NCBI GenBank assembly: GCA_030549335.1
Contig: CM060191.1
Coordinates: 2,051,001-2,115,000, forward strand
DNA from: Pontederia crassipes
Taxonomy: Eukaryota > Streptophyta > Magnoliopsida > Commelinales > Pontederiaceae
DNA: 64,000 nucleotides
Direction: 5' to 3'
The notes beneath the pieces were generated by a model. That model made no database searches. It saw nothing but the letters and a program-made list of their open reading frames with translations, and was not told the origin of the DNA. A program made the position numbers and the translations under genes. Shown one piece after another: positions 26,801 to 51,128 of the stretch. The first letter of the stretch is position 1; the number at the start of each line of letters is the position of its first letter.

Positions 26801-27278
26801 TATGTGGTAGGGGAGAGATCCCTTTCCAAGTTGAGGAAAAAAAGTCTAGGTGGTAGATTCCACAATACTATGTATTTATATGGCTCGGCAATCTTTCGTC
26901 CTGAAGTTCAACAAGGTCTAGGCATTGGATGAGTACTACAACATCAAATGTTTGTCTCCTTGTATAGTCTGATACAGTTGGATCATAGTTACAGTATTTT
27001 GCTTTTTCTGATTTGGTGACCTCTCCTTTCAACAGGTGGTGAGGTGTTGCCTGGAGCATGCTGCATCAGTGTCCAAGACCTTCCTCACCTCTGATGTTGT
27101 GGTTGTTGACATCAAGGAGCCCGAACCAGTCCCCGTTGGAAACCCAATGGATAACTCAGGTATATGTTCTTAAACCGATATCAAGATTCCCTATATGTAT
27201 GCTTCTATTCTGACCTTTAAATGCACATTCTCTAAACTGTGAATCTCGTGTTCTTTGTCATCAGGATATGGGTACTAA
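23839..27278 (+). CDS. CPN60B: Plastid chaperonin 60 subunit beta, copy 1
   Basis: Fourteen exons: 23839-24081, 24187-24312, 24386-24523, 24617-24712, 24909-25151, 25268-25502, 25603-25772, 25871-25948, 26066-26137, 26213-26317, 26461-26553, 26645-26737, 27036-27159, 27265-27278. All have GT/AG borders and the frame is open throughout (609 residues, normal for the family). Residues 1 to about 63 are a Ser-rich, Arg/Lys-containing plastid transit peptide; the mature protein should begin near [12 protein letters not shown]. GroEL-type landmarks include [21 protein letters not shown] (150-155, ATP site), the apical [21 protein letters not shown] with the catalytic-type Asp 461, and VVGGG. The C-terminus is NPMDNSGYGY, as in other plant beta subunits. 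The product assembles with alpha subunits into the stromal tetradecamer that folds proteins such as Rubisco large subunit, helped by Cpn20/Cpn10. The tandem partner lies 5.3 kb downstream. Confidence 0.97.
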
Positions 27279-28205: not shown

Positions 28206-28533
28206 GATTGCAAACGGTTCGCACAGGCCGGTCCAACAAATTTAACCGGTTCGCTCCAACCGGAGTGGCACTGTTATTACTGAAATCTTCTAGATAGTTC
28301 CGCCGGGGATCACATCGCGAACCATTGATGTCCGATCCGACGGTCGAGACGTCGTCGAAGCTTCAAGAGGAGAGGAGCAGATCATAAACCCTTCGTCCCT
28401 CCTATAAGGGCCGCCTCCCTCATCCGCTCGACGCAGCTGACACCGCTACTTCTCCAGGAAGAGGGCTGAGGGCTAAGGGAGGAAGCTTTAGCGCGAGCCT
28501 CGTCGACTGTAGGGCTTTCGATCCATATTTGAG
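28206..28533 (+). promoter_or_regulatory. Promoter and 5' leader exon of Cpn60 beta copy 2
   Basis: Near-identical to the copy 1 promoter from gattgcaaacggttcgcaca onward. TATAAGG lies at 28403. The leader exon ends at 28533 and is followed by a 640-base leader intron (28534-29173). Confidence 0.7.
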
Positions 28534-29176
28534 GTATGCTGTTGCGTTCCTTCGAGTCCTCTCTCCTTGTCAGATCGACAATGTCTCCGATGGCTTCTGG
28601 TCTGTTGCACTTTTCGCGTCATAATTTGAATCGAGGGGTTGGCTTTTAGTTGCTGTATTGGTCAAGTTGCAATTTTAAGGATTCGTCTTCGCCGCTTTGT
28701 TTCTGATGGAAAAAAACTTTATTTTTCTTGGAAAAAAAGGGTTGAGTTTTGGTGTTATAGTTTGGGCTACAGAATTTTCGGAAGGGATAACTTATAAAGG
28801 TGGTGTTTTTGACAAATCGTAGTTTGTATTCAACGACATTTTCGCAAATTTCGTCTTTAAGGAGCTTGTTTCTTGAGGAGTTAAATAGCGCAGGCGAAAT
28901 TATGTATAATGAAACAATTCATCTGAGATTTCTTTTTTTTTTAACTCAAGAGATGCCTGTTCATTCAACTCAATCCGGTTGGTCCATTTTCCATGTCAGT
29001 GTTGTTACACTATCTGTTGCTGTGTCTCAAAAGCGTTCCTTGCCTTCATGTTGTATACTTGTATCACGTTGTAATTTATGTAAAACTGAATGTGCAAGAA
29101 TACGATACCCTGCTCAGTTTTCTTTGGTATAAGACCAGTGATTTTTTTGTGTGACTTGTGTCTATGCTAGCAGGCT

Positions 29177-32100
29177 ATGGCATCCTCAATTAGCACCATG
29201 TCCACCGTTTGCTCTATGGTTGTTCCTAGCGGCGACAGGAAGCTGTTAACTTCCGGCGGGAAGTTGTCCCAATTTTCTTCATTTACGTCTATATCATCTA
29301 GTTCCCTCAGCAGCAGAAGCCATAGCCTATGGTTCCAGAGAAGAGGTGGCTTGAAGATCAATGCAATGGCCAAAGAGTTATACTTCAACAAGGATGGCTC
29401 AGCTATCAAAAAACTACAAGTGAGCTATCTAACATTAAACATCTTGCAAATGTACCTTTTTAGCTGCTGTCAAATGCCCACTTCATTGTTGCTAAATACA
29501 TCTACTTTCCTGTTTCTTGTCAGAATGGAGTAAATAAGCTGGCAGACCTTGTCGGGGTTACTCTTGGTCCCAAAGGCAGGAATGTTGTTTTAGAGAGCAA
29601 GTACGGATCGCCGAAGATCGTAAATGATGGGGTCACAGTGGCAAGGGAGGTAGTCTATGGAGCTGTACTGTGCATAATCTTGATTTCATAGTGCATCTTG
29701 CTAAGGATTGACATGCTTTTAGGTTGAACTGGCGGATCCTGTTGAGAACATTGGCGCTAAGCTGGTGAGGCAAGCTGCTGCTAAGACTAATGACTTGGCT
29801 GGTGATGGGACGACTACATCTGTGGTTCTTGCTCAAGGAATGATTGCTGAAGGTGTTAAGGTAGACATTTGATTCCTAGGTGTTTGTAAGCTGCTGGAGA
29901 TACACATCCACTCGAGGCACTTTCTGATTACTTGAATTTCATAATTTGTGTAGGTGGTGGCAGCAGGCGCCAACCCTGTGCAGATTACCCGTGGTATTGA
30001 GAAGACTGCTAAAGCTCTAGTTGCGGAACTCAAGAAAATATCCAAAGAGGTAAACTTACAAATGGTTCTTCATGTTTTAACTGTAGATGGTCATTCATTT
30101 GATGCACAGTATATATTTAAGTTTCCCCATATATGCACTTGTTTGGTTTTTAAGTTCATAATACCCATATATATGTATAGTTTTGACTTCATTTTTCCAA
30201 GTAATTTTTCGTATTTCAGGTTGAAGACAGTGAACTAGCAGATGTCGCTGCTGTTAGTGCTGGAAACAATTATGAAATAGGGAATATGATAGCAGAGGCA
30301 ATGAACAAGGTTGGCAGGAAGGGGGTGGTTACACTGGAAGAAGGAAAAAGTGCTGAAAACAATCTCTATGTTGTGGAGGGAATGCAATTTGATCGTGGTT
30401 ACATGTCCCCTTACTTTGTGACGGATAGTGAGAAAATGACAGCTGAATATGAGAATTGCAAGGTTATTTGTCTGATGTTTTTCTTTCTTAACAGGGTCAT
30501 TTTCAATTCCATCTGAAGGACTTTTCCTGTAATTGTCATGCCTTTGGTTTTCAGTTGCTTCTTGTTGATAAAAAGATTACAAATGCAAGAGATCTTATCA
30601 ATGTTTTGGAAGATGCTATAAGAGGAGGGTACCCTGTAATAATAATTGCGGAAGACATTGAACAAGAAGCCCTTGCAACTTTGGTTGTGAATAAGCTTAG
30701 AGGGGCCTTGAAGATTGCCGCACTTAAAGCCCCTGGTTTCGGGGAGCGGAAGAGTCAATACCTTGATGACATAGCTATATTAACTGGAGGTATTTTAACA
30801 TTTCACTATGTCTAAATTTTGTCATGTTTGATTGTCCAATTACTTGATGTCATTATCGACTCAAATTTGTTTCTGCAGGGACTGTAATCAGAGAAGAAGT
30901 TGGGCTTTCCCTGGATAAAGCTGGTAAGGAGGTTTTGGGAAATGCTGCAAAGGTTGTACTCACGAAGGATTCCACCACCATAGTCGGTGATGGCAGTACC
31001 CAGGAGGAAGTAAACAAAAGAGTAGCACAAATAAGAAATCTGATCGAGGTTTCAACATGAGATTATGTGTCCAGTATTATTTTTCAGTTTATCCTATGCT
31101 GCTGCTTAATGAGGATTGCCATTCAACTCTTTTTCTAACCAAATTCTCCAGGCTGCTGAGCAAGAATATGAGAAGGAAAAGCTTAATGAGAGAATAGCGA
31201 AGCTATCCGGTGGTGTTGCTGTTATCCAGGTAAAGAAGATATTATCTCAAATCTCACTTATGTCTACTGGGAATATGTTGATGTTTATCATCTATGGCTG
31301 ATGAGTAGCAGACTTAGCTTTATTCTTGTTCATGTGCAGGTTGGAGCTCAGACTGAAACAGAATTGAAAGAGAAGAAGCTCAGAGTTGAGGATGCTCTTA
31401 ATGCTACAAAGGTATGTGACATTTGTTTATTTGACTATGGTGTGTCAATTCTTTGTCTTATAGAAATTCAGTAGATTCATACCTTTCTTTAGGCTGCTGT
31501 AGAGGAAGGTATTGTTGTTGGTGGAGGCTGTGCTCTTCTGAGACTTGCTTCAAAAGTCGATGCCATCAAGGAGACTTTGGATAATGACGAGCAAAAGGTT
31601 GGTATTTGTAATGACTAAATGTCTTGTTCATTTTTACATGTCAACAGCATTAGTTTGACTAAAATGACTGAATCTTCAAGATGCCATCATGTTAATCAAG
31701 AAGTCCCACCTAATTCTTGTGCTTGTTCTGTAGGTTGGTGCAGACATAGTCAAACGGGCATTGAGCTACCCACTTAAGCTTATAGCTAAGAATGCTGGTG
31801 TTAATGGAAGTGTAGTAATGGAAAAGGTATTGGAACTTTTTAGTTTCCCGGCGCATAATTGTTGAAATGATCTGTAGCAAAGACTAACTTTGTTTTGTTG
31901 ATTTAATTGCCTTAGGTACTTTCTAATGACAGTGTCAAGTATGGTTATAATGCTGCAACGGGCAGCTATGAGGACTTGATGGCTGCTGGTATAATTGACC
32001 CCACAAAGGTATGTGTGTATGAATCATTTCTCCATCCAGAATCTTTGTTTTCTTCTCTCTGCTTCTGTAAATTTTGGTGGTAGGCAAGATTCATTTGAAG

Positions 32101-32538
32101 GTTGAGAAAACAAAATTAGGTGCATTTCTATAACTCTGCATTTGGACTGAGAATCAAAACATTTGTGTTTTCTTCTTGTATTCTGATACAATTCCATCTA
32201 ATCTGCTATTCGTGTTATCTTAATTTGATCAAGTGATTGCCTAGATTGCTATATCTTTGCGTCTGGATGATGATTTCTTCCATGTAACAGGTGGTGAGGT
32301 GTTGCTTGGAGCATGCTGCATCGGTTTCCAAGACCTTCCTAACCTCTGATGTTGTGGTTGTTGACATCAAGGAATCCGAGCCGGTCCCTGTTGGAAACCC
32401 AATGGATAATTCAGGTAGATCCTCTTAGTCCCAGTCCAATGTTTCCTATTTATAAGCTTCTCTCGATCTTTACACCGTCATATTACATTCTCTAAACTGT
32501 GGATTTTGTGTTCATTGTCATCAGGTTATGGATACTAA
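29177..32538 (+). CDS. CPN60B: Plastid chaperonin 60 subunit beta, copy 2
   Basis: Fourteen exons with the same lengths and phases as copy 1: 29177-29419, 29524-29649, 29723-29860, 29954-30049, 30220-30462, 30555-30789, 30879-31048, 31152-31229, 31340-31411, 31493-31597, 31734-31826, 31916-32008, 32291-32414, 32525-32538. The product is again 609 residues with no stop. By eye about a dozen residues differ from copy 1, several of them in the transit peptide. Mature-region changes include VAKE to VARE, AMSK to AMNK, RGSLK to RGALK, DGTTQ to DGSTQ, VDVIK to VDAIK, ATGNY to ATGSY and KEPEP to KESEP. None touches the GDGTTT or RVEDA sites, so both copies should be active. Leader, promoter and the first introns are almost the same as in copy 1, while later introns are very different. 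Confidence 0.97.
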
Positions 32539-33298: not shown

Positions 33299-33607
33299 CG
33301 CGCTAATTATACACCGAGTTCTGCTCGGCCTCGTAGTATACAAAAATGAGAAGAGCAGCAAGTCCGCATCATAAAACTGATACTGTAGAAAGTGCAACTC
33401 GTGGAGTTGGAAGAAGGAGAAGAAGAAACTCCGAATCAATACAGGAACATAAATTTATCAACTCCTAGAAAAGAAATAAGGTTCGCCTGGTCAGAATCGG
33501 ATCTCATAGCTTCGAGTTGGAGCCTTATAAATACAGCTACAAGTTTCCTCCTCGATCGTCTCATGCTCGCTCTCCTGCCCTGTCCTGTCCTTCTTGACAT
33601 ATTGACC
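33299..33607 (+). promoter_or_regulatory. Promoter of thaumatin-like gene TLP1
   Basis: TATAAATA lies at 33526-33533, about 75 bases before the chosen ATG. The 62 bases 33473-33534 recur at 43201-43262 with one mismatch, and a more diverged version of 33299-33430 recurs near 40260-40400. Two upstream ATGs (33392 and 33563) are in frame but lie before or just after the TATA box. They are not shared by the paralogues. Confidence 0.6.
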
Positions 33608-34651
33608 ATGTCGCGCTCCACGTCTTCGCCTTCCTTTCTCGCGCGTGCTGCCTTCCGCCTCCTCTGCGCTCTTCTGCTGATCTCCTGCGGCGGCTTCAAC
33701 GGCGCGTCCGCAACCACCATCGAAGTGATCAACCACTGCCCGTACCCCATCTGGCCGGGCGTCCAGTCCAACGCCGGCTCCGTCACGCCCGAGATCTCCG
33801 GCTTCTACCTCTTCCCCGGCGCGGCCTTCCCCGTCCACGCGCCCTACTCCTGGTCCGGCCGCATCTGGGCGCGCACCGCGTGCGGCGTCGATCCTACCAC
33901 CAGTAACTTCTCCTGCGCCACCGGCAGCTGCGCTTCCGGCGCAGTCGCCTGCAATGGGTTCGGCCCCACGGCCCCTGTGTCGCTCGCCCAGTTCAACCTC
34001 GGGAGCTCGGCGGAGGACGCCATGGACTACTACGACATCAGCCTGGCGGACGGCTTCAACGTGCCCCTCAAGGTGGCGCCGATGGGCTTCGGGGAGAAGA
34101 GCAGCGACTGTAGAGTGACCCAGTGCGATGATGAGCGGTGCCCGCTGGACAACGAGGACAACAAGTCCCCGCACATCTGCCCCACGGCCATAACCCCCAG
34201 CTTCAAGCTCGTCTTCTGCCCCGTTCCAGTCCCGACCACATCGACGCCGAGCAACAACAACACAACAGCTAGTGGCAATGTTACCAAGAACATGCCGGAT
34301 GTCCTCCCACCGGTGGTCTACGTAGCTCCTTCTCCTCCTCCGATGCCGAGGATTAGCAACACCACCGTGGACCATCCATCAACCAACATGACCACCACTT
34401 CAGCGCCAGCGCCAGCTCCGGCAAGCAGCAGCAGCAATGATACTAACCATAAGGACGTTCCGGAAATCAACATAAATATAAACATCACAACCATCTCTGC
34501 TCCAGCTTCGTCTTCAGCTCCAGCGCCAGCTCCAGTTTCGTTGGGCAGGAAGGGGTTTGTCCCCGTCTCTTCTGCGGCCGTCTCGGCCTCCACCGCGTCG
34601 TTGCTCGTCTCCGGCAGCGCCTTGCTTGTGGCTCTTCTTGCCCTTGCTTAG
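33608..34651 (+). CDS. Small thaumatin-like protein with AGP-like tail and GPI-type C-terminus (TLP1)
   Basis: Single exon, 347 residues. Residues 1 to about 35 form a signal peptide ending NGASA. Residues 36-205 form a thaumatin domain with only ten cysteines, in the order of the cereal small thaumatin-like (PR-5) proteins: NHC, TAC, FSC, GSC, VAC, SDC, TQC, ERC, HIC, VFC. Full-size members have sixteen. The family signature is present as FSCATGSCASGAVAC, with Ser where Asp is usual. About 206-322 is rich in Pro, Ala, Ser and Thr with several N-glycosylation sequons (NNT, NVT, NTT, NMT, NDT, NIT) and AP repeats, like arabinogalactan proteins. The last ~25 residues are hydrophobic (LLVSGSALLVALLALA), as in GPI-anchor signals. 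It is likely secreted and tethered to the outer plasma membrane; a defence or wall role is inferred from the domain. The start was chosen by alignment with the paralogue at 45320. Very GC-rich. Confidence 0.88.
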   Translation: MSRSTSSPSFLARAAFRLLCALLLISCGGFNGASATTIEVINHCPYPIWPGVQSNAGSVTPEISGFYLFPGAAFPVHAPYSWSGRIWARTACGVDPTTSNFSCATGSCASGAVACNGFGPTAPVSLAQFNLGSSAEDAMDYYDISLADGFNVPLKVAPMGFGEKSSDCRVTQCDDERCPLDNEDNKSPHICPTAITPSFKLVFCPVPVPTTSTPSNNNTTASGNVTKNMPDVLPPVVYVAPSPPPMPRISNTTVDHPSTNMTTTSAPAPAPASSSSNDTNHKDVPEINININITTISAPASSSAPAPAPVSLGRKGFVPVSSAAVSASTASLLVSGSALLVALLALA

Positions 34652-36122
34652 TTTCGTAGCACACACTGATCGAGCCATTCTCATGTGGCAGTAGCGTAGC
34701 ATGCATGCTCCTTCATGGAGTCATGAATTGTATTAACAATTTTATTTTGCGTGGTTTTTGTTTTGAGTTAGAGTTGGTCCAATTGATCGATGTATAAGCA
34801 TTTGTTTCAATGAACATATATTATGGTCAGTTGTTTTTTCTCACAGTAGCTAAGCATATGATATTATGTGCTGCAATATGTGAACAAATTCTTATGTGCA
34901 AGCATACTTGGCTACTCTGTTTTATTGTTCATTTGACGTCTTCATCTTTAAACCATTTCTCATCTCCAACTCTCAAGAGCTAACCCCTCTACTTTCCTTT
35001 GTTCCACTAAAGTATCATGACACAGCCACTCTTTTACATTCAGATCTCTAAATCGCGGTCATCTTTTACTTGAAGAAAGTTTGAGCTGCATTCAGATATC
35101 TCTACTACAGTCTATCATTACTGACAGCCAAAGCACTTGCAGGAACTGATGCTAAAAAAATTTGGGCAAGGCATCCGCAGATCACTGCTAGGACTATTTC
35201 TGTCTTAGATACTAATAGTTAAGAGTTAATTAATCAAATGCTCCTGAACTTTGACGTTTGCTCCGTTTTATCCTTTAATTTTAATTTGTAACATGAATGA
35301 CTTATTTTTTAACTCATTACACCGAATGTCATTTTCACCGTTGATCATCCATTTCCCGATCGCATAGCTAACGTGACGCTCACACGATATTTTCTCCACG
35401 TAAGTATTTAATGACGTAAAAATACTACAAAAAAAATAATTGAAAAAAATAAAAATACTGTCACATAGAGGAAGAGGGGCGGTGTTCCTTCTCTCTTTTT
35501 TAATTATTATATTATTTTTATCAAATCAGCCATAAATTTCCGTTCGAGCGTGCAACTTCTTCCAAACGCATCGGCCGAACTTTCACGTCACATCGTAAAG
35601 TTTCAGAGACATCAAGAACTTTAATTCTTCAATCCAAACACAGTCTAGTGTGTCATATTCCAATATCAGTGAACAAGTAATGAGACACATCGATTCAATT
35701 CGGATCAGAGAAAACTCGTACGGAACCCAGACTGAGTCACTAGCTACTAGGGCCAGATTAGGTGTCACTTGCCATATCCTATTTGGATTCGGATCGAATT
35801 CTTACGAACTTGATCGCGTACTACCTACACCCGGTCGGATTTTGAATATGTAGATATATATAGAAACTGTTACAATCTTCTATTATCTTTTATAACCTTT
35901 AATTTTTAAATTTATTTGATAGACTAAATATTATATTATTTTTTTCAAAGAACCTTGATGTTACATTTTATTTAATAGAATTTCATCACATTATTGTTTA
36001 GACATTGGGGAATACGTAGGCGATGAAATATTGCTAACTCCTTGTTGCCAAATATCAGAGATTTTTTTTTAGGAAAAGTAATTTTATTGATATTAAGTTA
36101 CTCAATGTTATATATATTTGTT

Positions 36123-36182
<60 letters not shown>

Positions 36183-36679
36183 TGTTTGAAATTTATGCTC
36201 CAACTCTTTTCCCGTGTTTCATCACACATCAATTTTTTTCGTCGCCTTTTATGCAATAACAATTTAATTGTCATTTGATTTATTGAACTATTTTATTTTA
36301 TATTTTGTGCATCTTAAATGGCACCGACAATACTAGAGAATTTATTTTACCATATTTTTTTATTAACTTATATTATTTGATTTGATCGTTCGACTTGATT
36401 CAAAAATCGCCAATCCGGGTCGACGGTGGAATCGAATTTTACAACATCCACCTATATTCAAACGAAGTTATTCGTTTCGTGCAAATTTTTAGAAATCGAA
36501 TATATACATTGAAAGAAATGTATATATTCATATGGGAGCGAATCTTCTACTTATAAATAGTGCACACTATAAAATTATTCATTTTATTTAAATATTTTCA
36601 ACAGTTAACATTAATATTTCGAAATTTTTATCATCAAAATAACAATTATATAAAACATTAAAACTTTTCTAATCCAAAG
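34652..36679. other. TLP1 3' UTR and AT-rich spacer
   Basis: 34652 to about 34930 is 3' UTR shared with other cluster members (gagtcatgaattgta is a marker). 35653-35760 has weak similarity to 38262-38330 (a 'tcatattccaat ... cggatca' order), possibly old upstream sequence of a lost copy. 36125-36177 is a TA microsatellite flanked by tttgtttg on both sides. Otherwise nothing was recognised. Confidence 0.5.
36125..36177. repeat. (TA)n microsatellite
   Basis: About 26 TA units, bordered by tttgtttg on each side. Confidence 0.9.
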
Positions 36680-36684
36680 CTTGT

Positions 36685-37617
36685 AATTCTTCGCCTACTC
36701 TTCTCGCTCGTCTTGCCTTCTTCCTCCTCCTCCTCTCCTCCTGCGGCAGCTTCAACGGCGCGTCCGGAACCACCATCGAAGTGATCAACCACTGCCTTAC
36801 CCCATCTGGCCGGGCGTCCAGTCCAACGCCGGCTCCGTCACGCCCGAGATCTCCGGCTTCTACCTCTTCCCCGGCGCGGCCTTCCCCGTCCACACGCCCT
36901 ACTCCTGGTCCGGCCGCATCTGGGCGCGCACCGCGTGCGCCGTCGATCCTACCACCAGTAACTTCTCCTGCGCCACCGGCAGCTGCGCTTCCGGCGCTGT
37001 CGCCTGCAATGGGTTCGGCCCGAGAACGTGCCCCTCAAGGTGGCGCCGATGGGCTTCGAGGAGAAGAGCAGCGACTGTAGAGTGACCCAGTGCGATGATG
37101 AGCAGTTCCCGCTGGACAAGGAGGACAACAAGTCCCCTCACATCTGCCCCACGGCCATAACCCCCAGCTTCAAGCTCGTCTTCTGCCCCGTTTCTGTCCC
37201 TACCACATTGACGCCGAGCAACACCAACACAACAACTAGTCGCAATGTTACCAAGAACATGCCGGATGTCCTCCCACCGGTGGTCTACGTAGCTCCTTCT
37301 CCTCATCCGATGCCGAGGGTTAGCAACACCACAGTGGACCATCCATTAACCAACATGACCAATACTTCAGCGCCAACGCCAGCTCCAGCAGGCGGCGGCG
37401 GCGGCGGTGGCAGCAGCAATGATACTAACACTAATCATGAGGACGTTCCGGAAATCAATATAACTTGAAACTTCACAACCATCTCGGCTCACCAGCTCCA
37501 GTTTCGTTTGGCAGGAAGGGGTTTGTCCCCGTCTCTTCCGCGGCCGTCTCAGCCTCCACTGCGTCGCTGCTCTTCTCTGGCACCGCCTTGCTCGTGGCTC
37601 TGCTTGCCCTTTCTTAG
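36685..37617 (+). pseudogene. Broken thaumatin-like gene (TLP2)
   Basis: Nucleotide similarity to TLP1 and TLP3 runs from the signal-peptide region to the stop and into the 3' UTR. The start codon is missing, and upstream homology stops at about 36680, so the promoter is lost too. One C is missing in the Cys-Pro-Tyr-Pro codons (about 36793-36798), shifting the frame. An ~88-base deletion at about 37021 removes the segment equivalent to TLP1 33967-34056. The eighth cysteine is Phe (EQF for ERC). A TGA at 37465 interrupts the tail before the GPI region. The 3' UTR (37618 to about 37870) is still clearly related to TLP1. It cannot make the family protein. Confidence 0.9.
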
Positions 37618-37870
37618 TTTTGTAGTTACTGATGGAGCCATTCATATGGCATGCAATAGCATGCATGCTCCTTTATGGAGTCATGAATTGTAGTCACTCT
37701 TTTATTTTGTCTGGTTTTTTGTTTTGAGTTACAGTTGCTCCATTGATCGATGTATAAACATTTGTTTCGATGAACATATGGTCAGTTGCTTTTCACAGTA
37801 GCTAATCATAAGATTTATGTGCAGCAAGATGTGAACAAATTCTTATGTGCACACATACTTAATTAGCTTG

Positions 37871-38343
37871 CTCATTTTCCATGTTTTACTGTTCTTCTCC
37901 ATGTTACTGATTATGACACTTTGACGCAAAATTAACAGATGCAAAACGCTAATTTTACTTATTAAATTAATAAAATAATTACGTATTAATTTAAAATATG
38001 TGTTAAATAGTAGATGTGATTAGGATCATGATCATCGAATTATTTAATGGTCTTGATAAATATGATTAATTCAGCGATTGTAATTTATTTAATCTTAAAT
38101 GGAAATTTTTTATTATCAAATTACTCAAATAAATATATATTATTTCATCTAAGAAATTAATAAAGTATATACTCAATTTAATCATAAATTATAATAATTA
38201 AATAATAAAAATAATTAATGTATGGAGTGCTATATATACTCATTAACCTCTCTATATCATATTCCAATCGACTCTCTTCGGATCATAGAAAACTTATGCG
38301 GAAGAATCGGGTCGAGCCACTAGCCATAGGAATAAAGTTTTTA
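37871..38343. other. AT-rich spacer
   Basis: Nothing recognised except the short block at 38262-38330 noted as weakly similar to 35653-35760. Confidence 0.4.
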
Positions 38344-40067
38344 TGCCTTAACTAATTATATTTTGATAATATAAACATCGATTAATTAGAGTTATACTTA
38401 AAATATTGAGAAAGTTTAAGTAGGAATGAGTTATTTGATGTACCGAAATTGAAATTAACATTTGAATATATTTCATTAAAAGTTGTAATAATCTTGTTAG
38501 CTTTTTAATCAATTAAAAATCACATCATTCTGATATATTCAAAATAGTACAAAATGGTCGAACAATCAGCTAGTTAACTGGTTGACTGATCACCATGGAA
38601 AACGCAAAAATTGACCAATATTCCAAGATTGGTCGACCGACGATATAAAAAATATTGAGCGGCCGAACAATAGTAGTTCGATTGGACCTGCATCGAAAAA
38701 AGTGCGAGACAACTAGAAAAAAGACCAAAGATCATTGCCTAGTGGACGAAAAAGTGTGACCAATCCATTGATCGAAAAAGTGCAAGATTATCAAAACCCT
38801 CCAACATTCATATTTTTCAAACGGTTAGAAAGAACGGTCGATCGGTGGGCGGTCAGGTCTGCACACAGATGCGACTAATTTTGGCCAAATCAAATGTCTA
38901 TTATATTAGCCAAAGAGGCTTATAAAAGAGGTCCAAGAAGTGCACAAATAAAAGAAAAAGTAAAAGGAAACACCAAGCATTAAAGAAAATATATTTATTA
39001 AAATTCTTGAGTTATATTGTGGAATCTTCTCTAGGGGTGTTCAGCGGGTCGGATCGACCCGCGAACCCGGTTGGTCGGGTCGAGTTGACCCGCCCGACCC
39101 GACCACCGATCCGACCCGACCAAGGGTCGGGTCGGGTACGAGTTGAAATTTTCCAACCCGAGTTGACCCGACCCGACCCGATTGACCCGATATTTTATTT
39201 TTTTTTAATTTTTTCCTTTTTTATTTAAACTTACGCTTATATTTGATATAAAAATTTTAAAATAAAATATTATAAGTGCAGAAATAACATTAAATTGTTT
39301 AAAACTTTATTTTATGTTTTAAAATAAATATTAAATAATATTTTTATATTAAATAAATATAAAAATAGTAACAAAAAATAAATAAAAAAAGAAAATTGGG
39401 TGGTCGGGTTACCCGACCCGACCCGAACCGGGTTCGGGTTGGGTCGGATTTGCGCCCCCAAATCCCCTGGACCCGACCCGATCAAATTTGGTCGGGTCGG
39501 GTCGAGTTTGTTCACGGGTCGGGTCCAACCCGACACGTGAACACCCCTAATCTTCTCTTCTTTGTTCTCTTCATATAAGCTTGATACCGTAAATGATGAA
39601 AACTTTTATTTTGAGATTCGGGTATGTGATCCTGCGAAGAAGAGAATTTATCTTACCTCTTGAGTTTGACAAAAAGTAAGAGTGTTTTTTTCGTAAAAGA
39701 GGTGTCTTGGGCGAAAAATCGATACGTAAAAGCTTCATATGAGGAGGGGTGCACCTTATTTGTCAAAACGGAAAAATGTGTTGTGATGTAAAAAATTTCT
39801 TCTTTCCTCCATTGGGAACGAAAGGTACTAGTAGAATCTCCCGTCTTGAAATCGAGAAGTCGGAATGAGAGCAAAGGTCAAAGTGCGATCGAAATTACTT
39901 TGTGTTCTTGTGTTTGTCTTTCTCTTTTCTTCTATTTCCTACTCAATTGCGCATGTGATTTGATCATTATTGTATTAGTTTAAAATTTAATGAAATACAT
40001 CACGTAAATTCGATATTTTCAATAAAACATCAATTCACTCCCTCTTTGATGTCTTATGGCACCAGCA
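38344..40067 (+). mobile_element. Solo LTR fossil, Copia family of 53562-57755, with nested MITE
   Basis: The right half (39600-40067) follows the order of the Copia LTR at 53562-54538: 'atcttacctctt', 'tgtgatgtaaaaaatttctt', 'gagaagtcgga', a CT-rich stretch, then an A-rich end before 'ttatggcacc'. The left start near 38344 is inferred from 'aattatattttgat'. There is no internal region, so it is taken as a solo LTR. It is clearly more diverged than the two LTRs at 53-57 kb and therefore older. A 516 bp MITE with its target duplication sits at 39033-39548. Exact ends are uncertain. Confidence 0.6.
39033..39548. mobile_element. GGGTC-rich MITE, probable Mutator-like, complete
   Basis: The left end aggggtgttca and right end tgaacacccct are inverted repeats. 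The element is flanked by a perfect 10 bp direct repeat AATCTTCTCT (39023-39032 and 39549-39558). The outer ~120 bases on each side are built from GGGTC/GACCC runs that can fold on themselves; the middle is AT-rich. A 9-11 bp target duplication is typical of Mutator-like elements, so that assignment is favoured. It has no coding capacity. Relatives lie at 6552, 9398 and 18021. Confidence 0.85.
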
Positions 40068-40109
40068 TCTATTAAATAACAGTTCTTTTTTCAGTGATGT
40101 TTATTATTC

Positions 40110-40403
40110 AACGTAATGCCAATTATACCACACGAACCTTGAAAATGAATAAAGATGCAATTACATACTGATGAAAATAAATATTATCAGAAAAACATCA
40201 ATAGTGAGTTTTGCTCGGCCTAATTTTCTTGACCAATAAATATATTTCCTCCAAGAACACGCACTAATTATAAAGACTGAGTTCTGCTCGACCTCGAAGG
40301 ATACAATAATGAATGGTCGCTCGCAAGTTCAAATCCTAAAAGTGGCACTGCAAATAATGCAACTCGTGTCGGAGTTGCAAAAGAAGAAAAAAAATACTAT
40401 AAC
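40110..40403 (+). promoter_or_regulatory. Orphan upstream region of a lost thaumatin-like copy
   Basis: Diverged but collinear with 33217-33440 upstream of TLP1: 'gccaattata', 'gagttctgctcg', 'gcaactcgt' and 'agttg' in the same order. It is interrupted by the CACTA element starting at 40404, and no thaumatin coding sequence follows. Confidence 0.6.
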
Positions 40404-43200
40404 CACTACAAGAAAAAGTCGGATTTCCGACGGTCTGACATCCGTCTGAAATATCGATGGTTTTTTCGGCGGATCATGTAAACCGTCGAAATTTTCGTCG
40501 GATTTTTTTCGACGGTTCTGGTCGTCTAAACTTTCGACGGTCGAGAATTCATCGAAAGCTTCCGTCGAAAATCTTGATTTTTTGACGGTTGAGACTGTCG
40601 AAAGTTTAGACGGTTTACCTATCCGTCGAAACTTCCAGCAATCTTAGCCGTTGAAACATTTCAACGTTGGTCCCGTACTATTATTTTAATTTTTGACGGT
40701 TTCGACCATTGAAATTTGCGACGTTCGACGCAACCGTCAATATTTCGACGGTCAAACCCGTCGGAATGTTTTCAGAGATTTTTATTAATTAATTTATGCA
40801 ACTCTGTTCAGTTGAGATATTTAAATTATTATATATATCGACGGCTAAAACCGTCGAAAGTTTCGACGGTTTATGGAACCGTCGAAAGTTTCAACGGTTT
40901 TTCCAGCGGGTTCGAGCCGTCGAAATTCGAATTAATATTATATTATTTTTACCTATGTTGTGACGATTATGACCGTCGAAAAATGCCTATATAAATACCC
41001 GACCCCACTGTCACTTTGTCCGTTTTCGATCCCGCATCTTTCTTCGAAGCCGTCCGCATTTCGTCCGGCCGGCGGCCACCTCCCGCATGCGCATTGCTGT
41101 CCCTCGCCGCCGCCCGAAGGTTTCGCCGCCAGGTCGCCGCCGACTGCAATCTCCGGCGTAGGTAGGCTCCGATCCCCGCCCTTCTTACTCTCTCCGGCGG
41201 TCAGATCCGACCGCCCTCCGCGCGCGGTGGCCAGATCCAACCGCCCTCCGCGCACAGCTGCCAGACCCGGCCACCTTCCGCGCGGCGGCCAGAGGGCGGC
41301 CGCCCTCCGCGCGGCGGCCGGATCCTTTCGCCCTCCGCATTGTCAATTAAATTTGTGATCCATACAAAAAATTTATTGGGTTACTTATTTTATTTTAGTC
41401 AATTATAATCAGTATGGTTGGCATGATATTTCTTATGATTTACTTCTCTTATGTTATTATTCAGTGAAACTTATTTAAGTGTACTATGAAAGAGAACTTT
41501 CAAAGCAGGGACAAATGCCCTTCGCACCAAGGCAACATTTTTGGATTGCAAAAGCGACACCAAGTTTTCTCACACTCTAATTGGCACTTCATTGCAAGAA
41601 TACTTTTTTTTTCCCAAATTTCAGTATGTTCCATCAAGAAATCGAAACACAATAACTCATTATTTTTTAGAGTTATTTAGCCTCGAATAAAATTTATTAG
41701 ATAATAACCCTCCTAAGATACAATAAAGTCCAACTTGTAATCTCTTGCTTTAGTAATTTGACATTCCTATTATCAGCAAGAGTATAATATGCATGCATCG
41801 TATTGAGCTGCAGTGATTTCTGATTTGTGCTGTCAACGAAGTAGATATTACTTTTCGGTTTATACTATCGAAGCATTTTCTTTCTTTATTTTATCTTTTT
41901 TTTTTTGTATTTGAGTAGGTAAATTTTACATTGTATTTAACTTTATAAAAAGTTAAAACTTTTATTCAAAGTGCTTTTGCCAAATCCACTTATTCTATGT
42001 CTCGCATTGAGAGAGTTTTTGTTTTTTGGGAAGAACAGTTTTTTGAGGTGGGACTACAATATCATGCATTTAAGATTTAAAACTTTTCTAACCATACATC
42101 CCAAGGCCAAAAGGCTGAAACAAGACTCATCAAATTTGGCTTGGCTTTTAATCAACAAATGGTACTGTAAAGAAAACTTCTATCAGTCTTCATTATCATT
42201 TGCTTACTTTCAAGTTTCAACACAAAACATTTTTTTATAACCTTTGAGAAATCTAAATTTTTTACAAATACATCTCCTAAGATGCATATTTTTTTTCGGA
42301 TTGCAAGGAAGAATCATGGGCTTAACACAAGAATATAGTCGACAAAAAAGGACTCTCGAAAATCGAACTTAATACCTCTTGATATAAGGAGAGAGAGAGA
42401 TCATGTCTAGCTCATGAACTTTTAAGGATTTCAACCTGACTTGTATAAACCAAACAATTTGAATATCATGTTAAGCTTTTCTTTTAAATGAACTAATCCT
42501 CTTTTAAGCTTTTCTTATGATTTCATTTATGATGGAATATTTCATGCATAGACGCATAAACAAAAATTCTAACTAAATAATTCATAAAGGAAAAACTTGC
42601 ATATTACTATTGTTTTGTTGATATCTAGTTTAAAGTAAATAAAAATTCTTGTGTTACATATTATTATGTTATGCTTGTACTTGATCGATTGTTGTATTTG
42701 TTACGCTATGCATGTGTTATTGCTACGTAAATCTTGATTAGTTGTAATTAGCACGCAGGAGGGGAGCACACCGTTGATCCCAAGACAACTTTGGATGAAC
42801 CACGTCGACGTGAAGAAGGGTCACATTTACGGCCTCGGATCTTCTGTGAGTACAATAGATATTGGATATGGTCGTAAATCTACTTCAGGTTCATCTTGTT
42901 CTGATCAAGGTATGCAAGAAATTATGGATCAGATGCGGCATTCGATTAGGAAAGAGCTAAGAAAGGAGTTCGAAGAACGTGAATATCGTAATAGGACTGA
43001 AATAAAAAAAATGATGCATGCCATCATGCGTGGAGAATTTAACGACGACGACACCGAGGTAGATTCATTTTTTTGAAAATTTACTTTAATTTTACTCAAT
43101 AGATTCATATGCACTTTGACATCAATATAACCTAAGAAAATAAGGGTATATGGGTATTAACTTAGATTTTACTCTCCATTAGATTTTACTCTTCATTAGA
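40404..43200 (+). mobile_element. CACTA (En/Spm-type) transposon, right end missing
   Basis: It starts with CACTACAAGAAAA, the same 13 bases as the element at 4461. The first ~570 bases are packed with TTCGACGG/CCGTCGAA motifs. A TATATAAATA at about 40988 leads into a GC-rich leader (41000-41340), the same plan as the other element. Further on is a transposase-24-like exon (42758-43076). No inverted CACTA end was found before host-like sequence resumes at 43201, so the right end is deleted and the element should be immobile by itself. 41360-42757 contains only AT-rich DNA and short frames that I cannot assign. Confidence 0.8.
42758..43076 (+). CDS. C-terminal exon of a CACTA transposase-24-type protein (partial)
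   Basis: After a cag acceptor at about 42757 the frame reads EGSTPLIPRQLWMNHVDVKK, then HIYGLGSS, then a Ser-rich linker, then a charged helix (QEIMDQMRHSIRKELRKEFE and beyond) and ends DDTEVDSFF. The KKGHIYGLGS motif followed by a coiled, Lys/Glu-rich tail is the usual end of plant transposase-24 (Ptta/En/Spm) proteins, the accessory protein of CACTA elements. The upstream exons that should carry the rest of the domain were not found, so this is a remnant and probably not functional. Confidence 0.65.
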
Positions 43201-43262
43201 GAAATAAGGTTCGCCTGGTCAGAATCTGATCTCATAGCTTCGAGTTGGAGCCTTATAAATAC
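43201..43262 (+). promoter_or_regulatory. 62 bp copy of the TLP1 core promoter
   Basis: It matches 33473-33534 at 61 of 62 positions by eye and ends directly after the TATAAATA box. What follows (acaaaattaatgcgg) is not thaumatin sequence, so it is an orphan promoter scrap. Confidence 0.9.
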
Positions 43263-45118
43263 AAAATTAATGCGGCTGTATTTTGAGTGAAGTGTACGTC
43301 AAAATAATTTTTCCTTCTCTTTTTCGATAGTTTCCATTAGACAGATTATGATAATTATATTTGTTATAATTAATCATTTATGCTGGTTTAATATAGAGTT
43401 ATATTACACCACTATTTTTGTTCATGCCATGATTAATTATAAGAGTATTGAAAACAAAAATGATTGCGCTTCACACAAAACGATTTGTTTGCTTAACATG
43501 CTCATTAAGCTCTATAACTTATGGATTTTATGTAAATGAGCTTATTTTGCCCTCTACAATATATGCGATCTGAATCCCTGACAAATTGTCAATAAGCTTT
43601 CTTGAAAAATTAACGACAAAAGTGTCAAAATTTTTCTTTGTCAACATCCGGGGTGAAATTATAGTCTCTTGCACTTTGATGCACAAATGAATATAAAGAC
43701 AGGAGCTTAGAGTGGCTTTTCTTGTTAAGTAAGATCTCGAATTCGAATCCTTATGAACGTAAAAAAAAATTATTGCGAAATTCACTTATCAATATCAGAT
43801 ATCCAATTCGGAGTGATCTATGTCTAATTAATTAGATTGACTATCCAAAATAAATAAAGTGTGGAGGGGTGGCCTCCCCACTTTAATAATATACATATGT
43901 ATTAATAATATATGTATTGATTTATTAATTTTAAATTAAATGTTGATAACTTGATATGCTTTTTCTTAAATATTTATGTTATGATATTAAAATATTATTG
44001 GCTATACTACTATAAAGTTGTGAAAAAAATCATGGATTTAAATTTTTTGTACTCATTTTTTTCTTTTAACTTGTCTTTACCCCAATTTTAATATTCTCTG
44101 TCCTCCTTTTATAATGAAGTATATGAAAACACTAAAAAACCCTTGGTATTTGTGATCCGTGAATTCTTTAAAATCTTCCACGAACAATAATTTTACCATG
44201 GATTTATGAAAAATTAACTTATGTCCAATAACGGAATTCGTCACAATTTTTCAACGATTTTTCCATTAAAAATTGGGGTGGCACCTGACCTGCCCCGTTT
44301 CAAGGAGCAAGATGTTCTACTACCCACACTACCCCCTTCCCATTAAGTCCTCTATTTTCCAAGTGATGTAAAATCTCTATCATTAAGTAATCAATATTTA
44401 TAAGAAATCAATAAAATAATATATCTAATAATCAATAAAATAATATATATTAAACAACTCAAATATAATTCAATTAAAATTAATGTAACATAATATTTTA
44501 TTAAGATATTTCTGATGTAAATGATTTCTCTTGACCTCGAAGGTATATGAACCGCAATTCTTCACTTTCTTGCGGTGAAATCAGGAATTCACAATTTTCA
44601 TACCGTCTATCTGTATCCATAATGTAAAGGTTGATCTAGCTCAGTCGGATTAGCGTTCGACCGTAAGAGGTTATCTCAAATTCATTCTTGACCCACTTTG
44701 AGTCGGTCAAATCTAATTGAAACAAGTGTTGGTCGAAGTGACAAATTTAAATTAATTATGATAAAAAATTAATTTTTAGGACATATTACTTAAACTATAT
44801 ATATATCTAACTTTTTTTCCGTTTTTCATCACATGTCAAAAAAATTTCATCGTCTTTTACGTAAGAAATATTTAATTTATTAAACTATTTATTTTACTTT
44901 GTTATATTTTAACTTATTTATAATGCATTTTACTTTGTTATATTTTAACTTATTTTACTTTTTCTAGGAGTCGGAAAAGAAAAAAGAATCAGAATAATTC
45001 TTCTTCTTGTGTTGTCGTAGAAGTAGAACACGTAGGTAGATATCGACATGCATGCAGACCGACGCACGTGAGGTCTTCTCTTGTCTGGCTTCCAGGCGAA
45101 CTTAATTAGGAAAAGTTA
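43263..45118. other. AT-rich spacer, nothing firmly recognised
   Basis: A tRNA-like box A string (tagctcagtcgg at about 44637) is discussed among rejected items. No gene or terminal repeats were seen. Confidence 0.5.
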
Positions 45119-45319
45119 TACTCCGAATCGGATCAGAAGTACTGTGCATATTGATTAGTGATCGATTAGACAAGGAGTAGGAATAGCTGTGAATTGTGAT
45201 CGCAGAGAAGAGACTGATCGAAGAGCTTATATATAAATACAACATCAACATCGCATCCTTTCGCCATAAATTAACTCTTTTTCTCGTCCAGGGCTTCTAA
45301 TTCTTTTCTTCTTCACACC
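45119..45319 (+). promoter_or_regulatory. Promoter of thaumatin-like gene TLP3
   Basis: TATATAAATA lies at 45229-45238. The stretch with gaatcggatcaga, gattagtgat and ggaatagctgtgaatt is shared in order with the TLP4 promoter (49918-50008). Confidence 0.65.
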
Positions 45320-46357
45320 ATGTCTTCGTCTTCTCGTCTTGCCTTCTTCTTCCTTCTCCTCCTCCTCGTCTCCTGCGGCAGCTTCAACGGCGCGTCCGCA
45401 ACCACCATCGAAGTGATCAACCACTGCCCTTACCCCATCTGGCCGGGCGTCCAGTCCAACGCCGGCTCCGTCACGCCCGAGATCTCCGGCTTCTACCTCT
45501 TCCCCGGTGCGGCTTTCCTCGTCCACACGCCCCACTCCTGGTCCGGCCGCATCTGGGCGCGCACCGCGTGCGCCGTCGATCCTGCCACCAGTAACTTCTC
45601 CTGCGCCACCGGCAGCTGCGCTTCCGGCGCAGTCGCCTGCAATGGGTTCGGCCCCAAGGCCCCTGTGTCGCTCGCCCAGTTCAACCTCGGGAGCTCGGCG
45701 GAGGACGCCATGGACTACTACGACATCAGCCTGGCGGACGGCTTCAACGTGCCCCTCAAGGTGGCGCCGATGGGCTTCGGGGACAAGATCAGCGACTGCA
45801 GAGTGACCCAGTGCGATGACGACCGGTGCCCGCTGGACAACGAGGACAACAAGTCCCCTCACATCTGCCCGACGGCCGAAACCCCCAGCTTCAAGCTGGT
45901 CTTCTGCCCCGTTCCAGTCCCGACCACATTGACGCCGAGCAACACCAACACAACAACTAGTCGCAATCTTACCAAGAACATGCCGGATGTCCTCCCACCG
46001 GTGGTCTACGTAGCTCCTTCTCCTCCTCCGATGCCGAGGATTAGCAACACCACCGTGGACCATCCATCAACCAACATGACAACCAGTTCAGCGCCAGCGC
46101 CAGCGCCGGCAGGCAGCAGCAGCAATGATACTAATCATAAGGACGTTCCGGAAATCAACATAACGTTAAACTTCACAACCATCTCGGCTCCGGCTCCGGC
46201 TCCGGCTTCTGCTTCTGCTTCAGCGCCAGCGCCAGCTCCAGTTTCGTTGGGCAGGAAGGGGTTCGTCCCCGTCTCTTCTGCTGCTGTCTCGGCCTCCACC
46301 GCGTCGTTGCTCGTCTCCGGCACCGGCTTGCTTGTGGCTCTGCTGGCTCTTGCTTAA
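45320..46357 (+). CDS. Small thaumatin-like protein with AGP-like tail and GPI-type C-terminus (TLP3)
   Basis: Single exon, 345 residues, open from the ATG. The signal peptide is residues 1-27 (LAFFFLLLLLVSCG core, ending NGASA). Residues 28-197 form the ten-cysteine thaumatin domain with the same Cys order and the Asp-to-Ser signature change seen in TLP1 (identity in this domain is well over 90% by eye). The tail, about 198-320, has repeated Ala-Pro (APAPAPAGSS, ASASASAPAPAPVS), NTT/NMT/NDT sequons and the conserved block SLGRKGFVPVSSAAVSASTA before the hydrophobic end. The 3' UTR carries the cluster marker agtcatgaatt at about 46408 and a TA microsatellite (46539-46574). GC is far higher than in the flanks. 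A secreted, probably GPI-anchored product is inferred. This is the best preserved copy. Confidence 0.92.
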   Translation: MSSSSRLAFFFLLLLLVSCGSFNGASATTIEVINHCPYPIWPGVQSNAGSVTPEISGFYLFPGAAFLVHTPHSWSGRIWARTACAVDPATSNFSCATGSCASGAVACNGFGPKAPVSLAQFNLGSSAEDAMDYYDISLADGFNVPLKVAPMGFGDKISDCRVTQCDDDRCPLDNEDNKSPHICPTAETPSFKLVFCPVPVPTTLTPSNTNTTTSRNLTKNMPDVLPPVVYVAPSPPPMPRISNTTVDHPSTNMTTSSAPAPAPAGSSSNDTNHKDVPEINITLNFTTISAPAPAPASASASAPAPAPVSLGRKGFVPVSSAAVSASTASLLVSGTGLLVALLALA

Positions 46358-46958: not shown

Positions 46959-48830
46959 TGTAGGAACACAAAGCATTAAGAGAATGAAGAATTAATGTTA
47001 AATCGAAAATATCGATTTTACGAAAACTATTGCGGAAGCTTAAAATCGATTCGTTATTATTTAAATCAACATAATAGCAATAAAAACACATATATAATAG
47101 AGTAGAAAGGAGAGGGAGAGAGAAAGATAAACACAAAATGCACGATGATTTGTTGATGAGGTTCAATCACATCTTGACCTCGTCTTCACTCCGACTTCTC
47201 AATTTCGAGAGCGTCGGTGATTTCACTAACACCCTTCCTTCGTTTTAAATAGGACAAGGAAGAAATCCTTTACAAATCTTTTTTTTTCTCCTTTTCAAGA
47301 GGTAAGGCACACCTCTTTCACTCATCTTTTCTTCGCCCAAGAGATAAAACACAATTTCTTTTCATTAATGAGTTAAATAACTATTACAATATCATAAGAA
47401 CACTCCACAATCTCTTTTACAATTTGAAACCTCACACAAAAAGTAAGAGAGAAAGAAATGAGAGATTTATAATTTTGAGTTCAAGATGACTTCTTGGATG
47501 AACACAAGTTTTTTTTTTTACGAAGTTTTAGTCTTCTTAATATATTTTGAACCCCTTTTATAGCATCCAATCATTTTCTAGCGGTTGCTACTCAAAACTA
47601 GCTAGTCATTATGTACTTTTCTACACTAAAATGAGCGTCCATTTTAGAACTAATCGTTGGAATATAGTCATTACAGGCAACTTTCGGACGTCCATTTTGA
47701 GATTCATGCGACCTTTATAGAAATCCCAAAGTCTCGGACATTTGCGATCACTAGCAAACATTTTTGGGCATCCGTTATTTCCAACGATCGACCAAAAGAT
47801 GTTCGGTCACCAATTTTGTCATCAACGTTTGCACTCTTTTATACATAATTTTTTACACAGTTATTCAAATAAGACGATTTTTTATTCTATGAAAAGATAA
47901 AAAAAATATCTACAATTTGATACTCATCACTCATCCCAACTCCAATGATATCATAGTCAAATATTCAATCAAGGTTTCGTGCATAAAATTATCAACTTCA
48001 AATTAAACTTTTTAGACATTACTCCTTTTATACATAATGTTTCATACAAGTATCCAAATGAATTGATTTTTTATTCTATGAAAAGGTAACATAAGTCTCT
48101 ACAATTTTAATATTCATTATTTATGCAAAATCTAATGAGATCATGGTCAAATATTAATTCAAAGTTCAATATACAAAGTTGTCCATTTCACATGAAACAG
48201 TTTAGACATTTCTTTTATACATAACTTTTCATACCGGTATGAAAAACTAACAACTTTATTTATAACTTTCATGTTCACCTCTTATCCCAAATATATTGAT
48301 AAAGTAATTAAATATTAAATATAAGTTTAGCACATAAAAATATCAACTTCAAATAGAACTTGTTAACATTCACTTTTTTAGCATAACTTTTTTATACGGT
48401 TATCCAAATGAGGTGATTCTTAATTCTCTGAAAGAATAAGAGAATTATCTATAACTCTTATATTGATCTCTTTATCTAAGTACCATAATAGAATACTCAA
48501 ATATTAATTGCAAGTTTAGTACATAAAAATATCAACTTCAATTTGAACTTTTCGAACTTCACTTTTTTTAAACATAACATTTTATGTTGTTGTCCAAATG
48601 AGGTGATTCTTAATTCTCTATAAAGATATAAAAATTATCTATAACTTTTATATTTATCTCTTAATGTAAATCTCGTGAGAATATAGACGAACATTAATTG
48701 AAAGTTTAGTGCATGAAGTAACTCATTTATATTTAAATTTTTTTTCCGACATTTTAAATATAACTTCATTCTTTTAAGCTTTCTATAATCAAAATATAAT
48801 TATAAAAGGTATAAAATTTTTGATCCAACA
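46959..48830 (-). mobile_element. Solo LTR fossil of the Copia family, enlarged by an internal tandem array
   Basis: On the minus strand it starts TGTTGGATCAAAAATTTT (from 48830) and ends with TTCCTACA (46959), matching the ends of the Copia LTRs at 53562 and 56780. The R/U5-like part (46959-47330) follows the same order: gagaagtcgga, the CT-rich stretch, the end. Flanking pentamers attag and attat agree at four of five bases. At 1872 bp it is almost twice the ~976 bp family length because of the repeat array at 47845-48770. No internal coding region. Older than the paired LTRs. Confidence 0.8.
47845..48770 (-). repeat. Tandem array inside the solo LTR, ~185 bp unit, 5 copies
   Basis: Units begin near 47845, 48026, 48212, 48381 and 48571. 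Each carries 'tatacataac', 'tatccaaatga', 'attctatgaaaa', 'tcatagtcaaatatt' and 'atcaacttcaaa' equivalents in order. The reverse complement of a unit matches one single-copy stretch of the Copia LTR (about 53675-53820, 'tgactatgatatgattatat'), so the array is an amplification of the U3 region. Confidence 0.8.
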
Positions 48831-50100: not shown

Positions 50101-51128
50101 ATGTCTTCGCCTTCTCTTCTCGGTCGTCTTGCTTTCTTCTTCTTCCTCCTCCTCCTCCTCGTTTCCTGCGGCAGCTTCAACGGCGCGTCCGGAACCACCA
50201 TCGACGTCATCAACAACTGCCCTTACCCATCTGGCCGGGCGTCCAGTCCAACGCCGGCTCCGTCACGCCCGAGATCTCCGGCTTCTACCTCTTCCCCGGC
50301 GCGTCCTTCCCCGTCCACACGCCCTATTCCTGGTCCGGCCGCATCTGGGCGCGCACCATGTGCTCCGTCGATCCTACGACGAGAAACTTCTCCTGTGCCA
50401 CCGGCAGTTGCGCTTCAGGCGCTGTCGCCTGCAACGGGTTCGGCCCGAAGCCCCCTGTGTCGCTGGCCCAGTTCAACCTCGGGAGCTCGGCGGAGGACGC
50501 CATGAACTACTACGACATCAGCCTATCGGACGGCTTCAACGTGCCTCTCAAGGTTGCGCCGATGGGCTTCGGGGAGAAGAGCAGCGACTGCAGAGTGACC
50601 CAGTGCGATGCCGATCGGTGCCCGCTGGACAACGACAAGTCCGCTCACATCTGCCCCACGGCCGAAACCCCCAGCTTCAAGCTCGTCTTCTGCCCCATTC
50701 CAGTCCCTACCACATTGTCTCCGAGCAGCAACAACAACACAACAACTAGTCGCAATGTCACCAAGAACGTGCCGGATGTCCTGCCACCGGTGGTCTACGT
50801 AGCTCCTCCTCCTCCTCCGATGCCGAGGATTAGCAACACCACCGGGGACCATCCATCAACCAACATGACCACCACTTCAGCGCCAGCAGGCAGCAGCAAC
50901 AATGAAACTAATCATAAGGACGTTCCCGAAATCAACATAACGTTGAACTTCACAACCATCTCGGCTCCGGCTCCAGTTCCAGCTTCTGCTTCAGCGCCAG
51001 CACCAGCTCCAGCTTCGTTGGGCAGGAAGGGGTTTGTCCCCGTCTCGTCTGCCGCCGTCTCGGCGTCCACCGCATCGTTGCTCCTCTCCGGCACCGGCTT
51101 GCTCGTGGCCCTGCTTGTTCTTGTTTAG
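50101..51128 (+). pseudogene. Thaumatin-like gene TLP4 with one frameshift
   Basis: The signal peptide (MSSPSLLGRLAFFFFLLLLL) and the first domain residues TTIDVINNCPYP are in frame from 50101. One C is then missing from the CCCC of the Tyr-Pro-Ile-Trp codons (about 50226-50229). The native frame is open again from about 50230 to the stop at 51128, carrying the rest of the ten-cysteine domain, an AP-rich tail and a GPI-type end (LLLSGTGLLVALLVLV). In the shifted frame, translation from 50101 would give a 139-residue secreted Ser/Pro/Ala-rich protein ending at about 50505. Promoter, TATA box and the rest of the gene look healthy, so the loss is recent or is a homopolymer error in the assembly. 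Confidence 0.85.

Follow-up and report, generated by a model that had tools for sequence, protein, structure and literature searches.

Did the small, ten-cysteine type of plant thaumatin-like protein (TLP) arise more than once, and can such a domain be held at the cell surface? Both questions are raised by a locus of Pontederia crassipes that lies in a stretch of 64,000 nucleotides (assembly GCA_030549335.1, contig CM060191.1, positions 2,051,001 to 2,115,000 of the forward strand), hereafter the window, from whose first letter all coordinates are counted. The window carries a tandem cluster of plant genes of the pathogenesis-related 5 (PR-5) type, with two intact copies, TLP1 and TLP3, and two damaged ones, TLP2 and TLP4, all four on the + strand (Table 1). 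Sequence comparison supports the view that the domain of these proteins sides with the 16-cysteine subgroup II branch, exemplified by Pru av 2 and Mal d 2. It apparently represents a 'small' domain of separate origin, in the part of the family where glycosylphosphatidylinositol (GPI) anchors are already known.

When the domain was searched against the PDB, Pru av 2 (2ahn) scored 117 bits and 3zs3, which we take to be Mal d 2, scored 106. The other 25 of the 27 distinct hits reached at most 69.3 bits, wheat TLXI, presumably the sole small type among them, being at 51.6. With an unverified cereal small-type sequence as query, the ranking was inverted (Jun a 3 146, 1z3q 143 and Pru av 2 93 bits), and TLXI as query likewise placed 1z3q (87) and zeamatin (85) above Pru av 2 (74). 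In a tree of 12 rows (nine PDB chains, the two window domains and the unverified cereal row), the window domains clustered with Pru av 2 and Mal d 2 with 98.4 in the Shimodaira–Hasegawa-like approximate likelihood ratio test (SH-aLRT) and a bootstrap of 98 (IQ-TREE). The same clade was found by a second tree method (bootstrap 96, SH-aLRT 97); leaving out TLXI gave it a support of 94/97, and leaving out the unverified cereal row 97/98. Forcing the window domains together with the small types was rejected in four of four approximately unbiased (AU) tests (p 0.014, 0.0083, 0.0086 and 0.017). Monocot small TLPs have been placed in subgroup I, Pru av 2 and the dicot TLP-kinases in subgroup II, and small TLPs may have arisen independently in rust fungi, monocots and conifers (PMC3048497). 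Searches for relatives elsewhere found none in viral contigs (two stretches matched a pattern) and, among 54 stretches from genome contigs, one distant archaeal thaumatin protein, which is unhelpful for the plant lineage. This protein (JAAZNH010000297.1, a contig labelled as a Methanomicrobiales metagenome-assembled genome, L001:2842-4191) has 449 residues, a Pfam Thaumatin match with E 2.9e-27 and a Pro/Thr-rich C-terminal stretch.

The alignment also indicates how the domain became small. In the compared fragments, the cysteines of Pru av 2 stand at 127, 132, 140, 156, 160, 169, 170, 180 and 193, and the window domain reads C133-x4-C138-x4-C143-x12-C156-x12-C169. Between the counterparts of Pru av 2 C132 and C193 there are 60 residues with six cysteines in Pru av 2 and four residues in the window domain. 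On this comparison, a segment of about 56 residues, the six-cysteine segment of Pru av 2, is missing from the domain, and ten cysteines are left because it is missing. The description as a small thaumatin-like protein given by the first-pass annotation therefore holds for the ten cysteines and the deleted segment, but not for the lineage, since the branch is that of subgroup II and the AU tests reject a grouping with the small types.

A second difference concerns the acidic cleft. The Glu of LAE, LVE or MAE, present in all nine PDB rows, is replaced by Gln (LAQF) in TLP1, TLP3 and TLP4, and TLP2 lacks the stretch that holds this site. We take this Glu to be the E of the REDDD cleft. Instead of the hallmarks of subgroup II, i.e. 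16 cysteines and the REDDD cleft residues, the domain thus has ten cysteines and a Q for E. As the replaced residue, conserved elsewhere, probably belongs to the acidic cleft, the protein is more likely to bind wall glucan or act as a scaffold than to be a glucanase. Small types have no defined acidic cleft (PMC3048497), which makes a glucanase or a classical antifungal activity less likely.

The first-pass annotation had attributed one architecture to TLP1 and TLP3, and this is what was found: frames ending at 34651 and 46357, a signal peptide as judged by eye, a Pfam Thaumatin domain and a hydrophobic end. The domain (PF00314; E 1.2e-36 in TLP1 and 2.4e-37 in TLP3; 126.8 and 129.1 bits against a cut-off of 27.4) has 170 residues, and its ten cysteines occupy identical positions in both proteins. 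The thaumatin signature G-x-[GF]-x-C-x-T-[GA]-D-C-x(1,2)-[GQ]-x(2,3)-C (PMC13298582) is absent from both TLP1 and TLP3, whose sequence at this place is SNFSCATGSCASGAVAC; their profile membership stands.

C-terminal of the domain, TLP1 and TLP3 have 142 and 148 residues, respectively. The first part of this tail is a stretch of 105 and 111 residues, of which Pro, Ala, Ser and Thr make up 58% and 60% (57–60% across the copies read). Chimeric arabinogalactan proteins (AGPs) are recognized by such a share of at least half of the stretch, together with AP/SP/TP dipeptides; here the share is at least half and there are 17–24 such dipeptides. The many N-glycosylation sequons are confirmed, as each intact copy has seven N-x-S/T sequons and same-letter shuffles give 2.7 for TLP1 and 2.2 for TLP3 (P 0.0046 and 0.0014). 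The AP repeats are frequent as described, but hardly exceed what composition gives: 20 AP-type dipeptides against 15.7 expected in TLP1 (P 0.10), 24 against 17.8 in TLP3 (P 0.033) and 17 against 15.5 in TLP4 (P 0.37). The remaining 37 residues open with the conserved block SLGRKGFVPVSSAA, which is indeed identical in TLP1, TLP3 and TLP4. No charge is present in the last 32 residues, which finish on a hydrophobic run whose best hydropathy over 15 residues is 2.4–2.6. Our own simple rules for a GPI anchor, used without a control set (a signal peptide, then a site of small residues and a spacer before a hydrophobic end that has no basic tail), give five candidate small-residue positions, with 19–26 residues after them, in each of the three copies read. 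With a tail that probably bears sugars and a probable membrane anchor, these would be cell-surface rather than freely secreted proteins.

Several comparisons between copies support the view that this fusion architecture is coded as a real protein. Homology among the four copies spans both the domain and the tail. TLP1 and TLP3 are 91% identical and differ by two indels of 12 and 18 nt, both multiples of three; four of five indels between TLP1 and TLP4 and five of six between TLP3 and TLP4 are also divisible by three, the exception being the 1-nt lesion of TLP4. Ratios of non-synonymous to synonymous rates (dN/dS) were calculated by the Nei-Gojobori method for the pairs TLP1/TLP3, TLP1/TLP4 and TLP3/TLP4, which are not independent, with one-sided binomial P values on rounded counts. 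In this order, dN/dS is 0.43, 0.28 and 0.24 in the domain (170, 113 and 113 codons; P 0.066, 0.0015 and 0.0006), 0.52, 0.39 and 0.36 in the Pro/Ala/Ser/Thr stretch (P 0.20, 0.015 and 0.020) and 0.13, 0.24 and 0.13 in the last 37 residues (P 0.013, 0.022 and 0.002). The 37-residue C-terminal end is the best-kept part of the protein.

Combined, these data allow the following model. The TLP protein would enter the endoplasmic reticulum, where a GPI anchor would take the place of its hydrophobic end close to VPVSSAA. N-glycans, and O-glycans on hydroxyproline, would be added to the stretch. The thaumatin core would be held in the wall at some distance from the plasma membrane. There, by analogy, it could act as a non-catalytic binder or scaffold for beta-1,3-glucan, from the wall or from fungi, or else for a pathogen protein. 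Binding of beta-1,3-glucan by TLPs is cited in PMC6831746; in fungal SUN proteins, a thaumatin-like domain without REDDD, compared structurally with TLXI, forms one wall of a canyon that is proposed to bind beta-1,3-glucan (PMC13251364). Given these precedents, a non-catalytic glucan binder is the first choice and a surface enzyme inhibitor the second. The whole explanation, i.e. a domain derived from subgroup II minus its six-cysteine segment, a glycosylated stretch, a GPI end and a non-catalytic binder or scaffold held in the wall, has in our opinion about an even chance of being right. A neighbouring reading, in which a second kind of small domain would come, independently of the cereal small TLPs, from a GPI-type subgroup II protein that lost its six-cysteine segment, and a tandem family of such proteins would serve, on a long glycosylated stalk, as surface receptor or scaffold for beta-glucan (callose or fungal), appears rather unlikely.

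A number of points weigh against the model. The branches are poorly separated by raw identity in the N-terminal stretch, which is 45.8% for Pru av 2, 41.1% for Mal d 2, 40.0% for zeamatin, 36–40% for the other subgroup I chains and 28.7% for TLXI. The lineage set comprises one real small type (TLXI) and one unverified sequence, contains no GPI-type 16-cysteine TLP, and includes the very long branch of TLXI; the tree came with a warning that long branches meet. Structure predictions of the domain are of low confidence (mean predicted local distance difference test score 33.0 alone and 30.1 with a four-row alignment), so that the pairs among the ten cysteines, which would be enough for five disulfides, are assigned by alignment only. 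The putative anchor depends on the simple rules given above. Finally, constraint on the stretch is weak when the two intact copies are compared, and comparisons with the damaged TLP2 give dN/dS of 0.55, 0.31 and 0.41 in the tail (1.01, 0.55 and 1.32 in a short piece of the domain). As the tail ratio remains low in a damaged copy, some of the constraint seen in the tail dates from before the damage and is inherited.

Among the alternatives, the one that survives best, while still being improbable, is a PR-5 protein of the ordinary kind, secreted or vacuolar, with a tail that would be a pro-region removed after sorting, leaving no anchor. It agrees with the weak constraint on the stretch between the intact copies and has precedents, since eight meadowsweet TLPs have C-terminal extensions and osmotin pro-regions have been discussed in connection with the vacuole (PMC13298582). 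However, no part of the window proteins is more constrained than their end, which is hydrophobic and uncharged in all three copies read, and 142–148 residues with seven sequons far exceed the 18-residue propeptide of the same source. A true monocot-type small TLP of the TLXI lineage that acquired a tail and acts as a surface inhibitor of xylanase or another glycosidase is less probable still. The ten cysteines would fit, as would a deletion that affects the corresponding part of the domain, TLXI is a xylanase inhibitor according to its PDB name, and the small-TLP-kinase of sorghum shows that small domains can reach membranes (PMC3048497); but the tree and AU tests give the other branch, cysteines 6–10 are spaced differently, and TLXI as query prefers subgroup I chains to Pru av 2, the reverse of the window domain. 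A decaying local cluster of recent duplicates all heading for loss, with a tail function that is not kept, would account for the two damaged copies out of four and for the repeats and copia gag nearby, and is equally hard to credit given two fully open copies, indels in frame and dN/dS ratios that stay under 0.55, in the domain as in the tail, whichever two of TLP1, TLP3 and TLP4 are compared.

Table 1. Features of the TLP cluster (window coordinates)
Feature	Position	Strand	Remarks
TLP1	33608..34651	+	intact frame, 347 aa
TLP1 TATA-like site	33526..33531	+	motif match, 82 nt before 33608; no control
TLP1 signal peptide	33608..33712	+	hydrophobic N-terminus, judged by eye
TLP1 ten-cysteine thaumatin domain	33713..34222	+	Pfam match
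TLP1 Pro/Ala/Ser/Thr stretch	34223..34537	+	105 aa, 7 sequons
TLP1 SLGRKG block and hydrophobic C-terminus	34538..34648	+	37 aa, putative GPI type
TLP2, damaged	36739..37584	+	tblastn match
TLP3	45320..46357	+	intact frame, 345 aa
TLP3 TATA-like site	45228..45233	+	motif match, 92 nt before 45320; no control
TLP3 signal peptide	45320..45400	+	hydrophobic N-terminus, judged by eye
TLP3 ten-cysteine thaumatin domain	45401..45910	+	Pfam match
TLP3 Pro/Ala/Ser/Thr stretch	45911..46243	+	111 aa, 7 sequons
TLP3 SLGRKG block and hydrophobic C-terminus	46244..46354	+	37 aa, putative GPI type
TLP4, damaged	50101..51128	+	tblastn match; single 1-nt frameshift about 43 codons in

The lesions of the damaged copies differ. 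TLP2 has a 1-nt frameshift, an 88-nt deletion within the domain and a stop in the tail, and lacks a start codon where the other copies have one. Downstream of its frameshift, TLP4 stays open to the same kind of C-terminus. The separate 1-nt losses of TLP2 (about 36795) and TLP4 (about 50226) lie a few bases apart in the same stretch of Pro codons; chance, a mutable run and a sequencing error cannot be told apart. The TLP1 frame has another possible start 15 codons upstream, at 33563, which is less likely because the TATA-like site favours 33608. TLP4 also has a TATA-like match 92 nt before its start, and W-box and G-box matches are few; like those of the table, these motif matches have no control, and no claim is drawn from the two boxes. 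The antisense open reading frames 33491-34375 and 45245-46063 were not retained as genes, as they mirror a GC-rich coding frame and have no other support (they were not searched). Upstream of the cluster, 23082-27206 and 28409-32461 form a tandem duplication with a spacing of about 5.3 kb, blocks 79–96% identical and exons that match the Cpn60 profile below cut-off; its N-terminus looks like plastid chaperonin 60 beta, as far as we can judge. Between TLP3 and TLP4, four tandem copies of a unit spaced by 161–190 nt occupy 48040-48742, three of them being 64–75% identical to the reference copy. Downstream of the cluster, a match to a copia-type gag (54854-55243, E 1.3e-23) marks retrotransposon remains. 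Together with the thaumatin genes, the Cpn60-like exons and this gag identify the window as plant DNA.

Small TLPs are treated as one class on the basis of their ten cysteines. If the cluster is a second origin, in the GPI-bearing part of the family, the cysteine count would be an unsafe class marker and the cluster would offer a natural test of the roles of the missing segment and of the acidic cleft. GPI-type TLPs have been little studied, and a membrane-held glucan-binding core, if true, would suggest a role for them at the wall that can be tested.

How do these proteins compare with known systems? Among the literature matches listed, which are mostly open-access, without supplements, and include ginger and banana families, none describes a TLP that combines ten cysteines with a GPI end and a long glycosylated tail. 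C-terminal extensions and predicted transmembrane regions are common in TLP surveys (PMC7564728, PMC13298582, PMC8786798): 10 poplar TLPs have about 40 extra C-terminal residues (PMC3048497), and 12 of 19 barley TLPs have one predicted transmembrane region (PMC7564728). The idea that a small-type domain on a glycosylated wall tether is little described stands for the tail and must be tempered by the small-TLP-kinase of sorghum, whose origin its authors call puzzling (PMC3048497). In this protein too, a small-type domain is linked to the membrane, but through a transmembrane segment and a kinase, and the available description mentions no such tail (PMC3048497). Small TLPs of five cereals average 175–185 residues (PMC8786798), against 345 and 347 here before processing, well beyond the size of about 17 kDa that is expected of a small TLP. 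Wheat TLXI (3g7m) shares the ten cysteines and also lacks a large segment in that half of the domain, but belongs to the other branch, with x7 between its cysteines 6 and 7 and another spacing of cysteines 6–10.

The closest domains remain those of the 16-cysteine subgroup II TLPs (2ahn and 3zs3), the best PDB matches, which share the WPG motif and have their first seven cysteines spaced nearly identically. They differ by their 16 cysteines and the segment missing here, by LAE or LVE instead of LAQ, and by solved chains of 222 residues without such a tail. At1g20030, At4g36010 and At4g38660, which we take to be 16-cysteine proteins with shorter tails, were compared by description, not by sequence. 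These three Arabidopsis TLPs are PR5K-like and combine a thaumatin domain with a listed GPI anchor (PMC6726743), as the window proteins would with their predicted GPI end. Since they are PR5K-like and the dicot TLP-kinases are in subgroup II, a GPI-type tail on this side of the family is less surprising. Among the matches listed, nearly all of the chimeric-AGP literature has no mention of thaumatin. Chimeric AGPs (fasciclin-like and xylogen-like) show the same order of a folded domain, a Pro/Ala/Ser/Thr stretch and a GPI-type end as the window proteins, but their folded domains are other than thaumatin.

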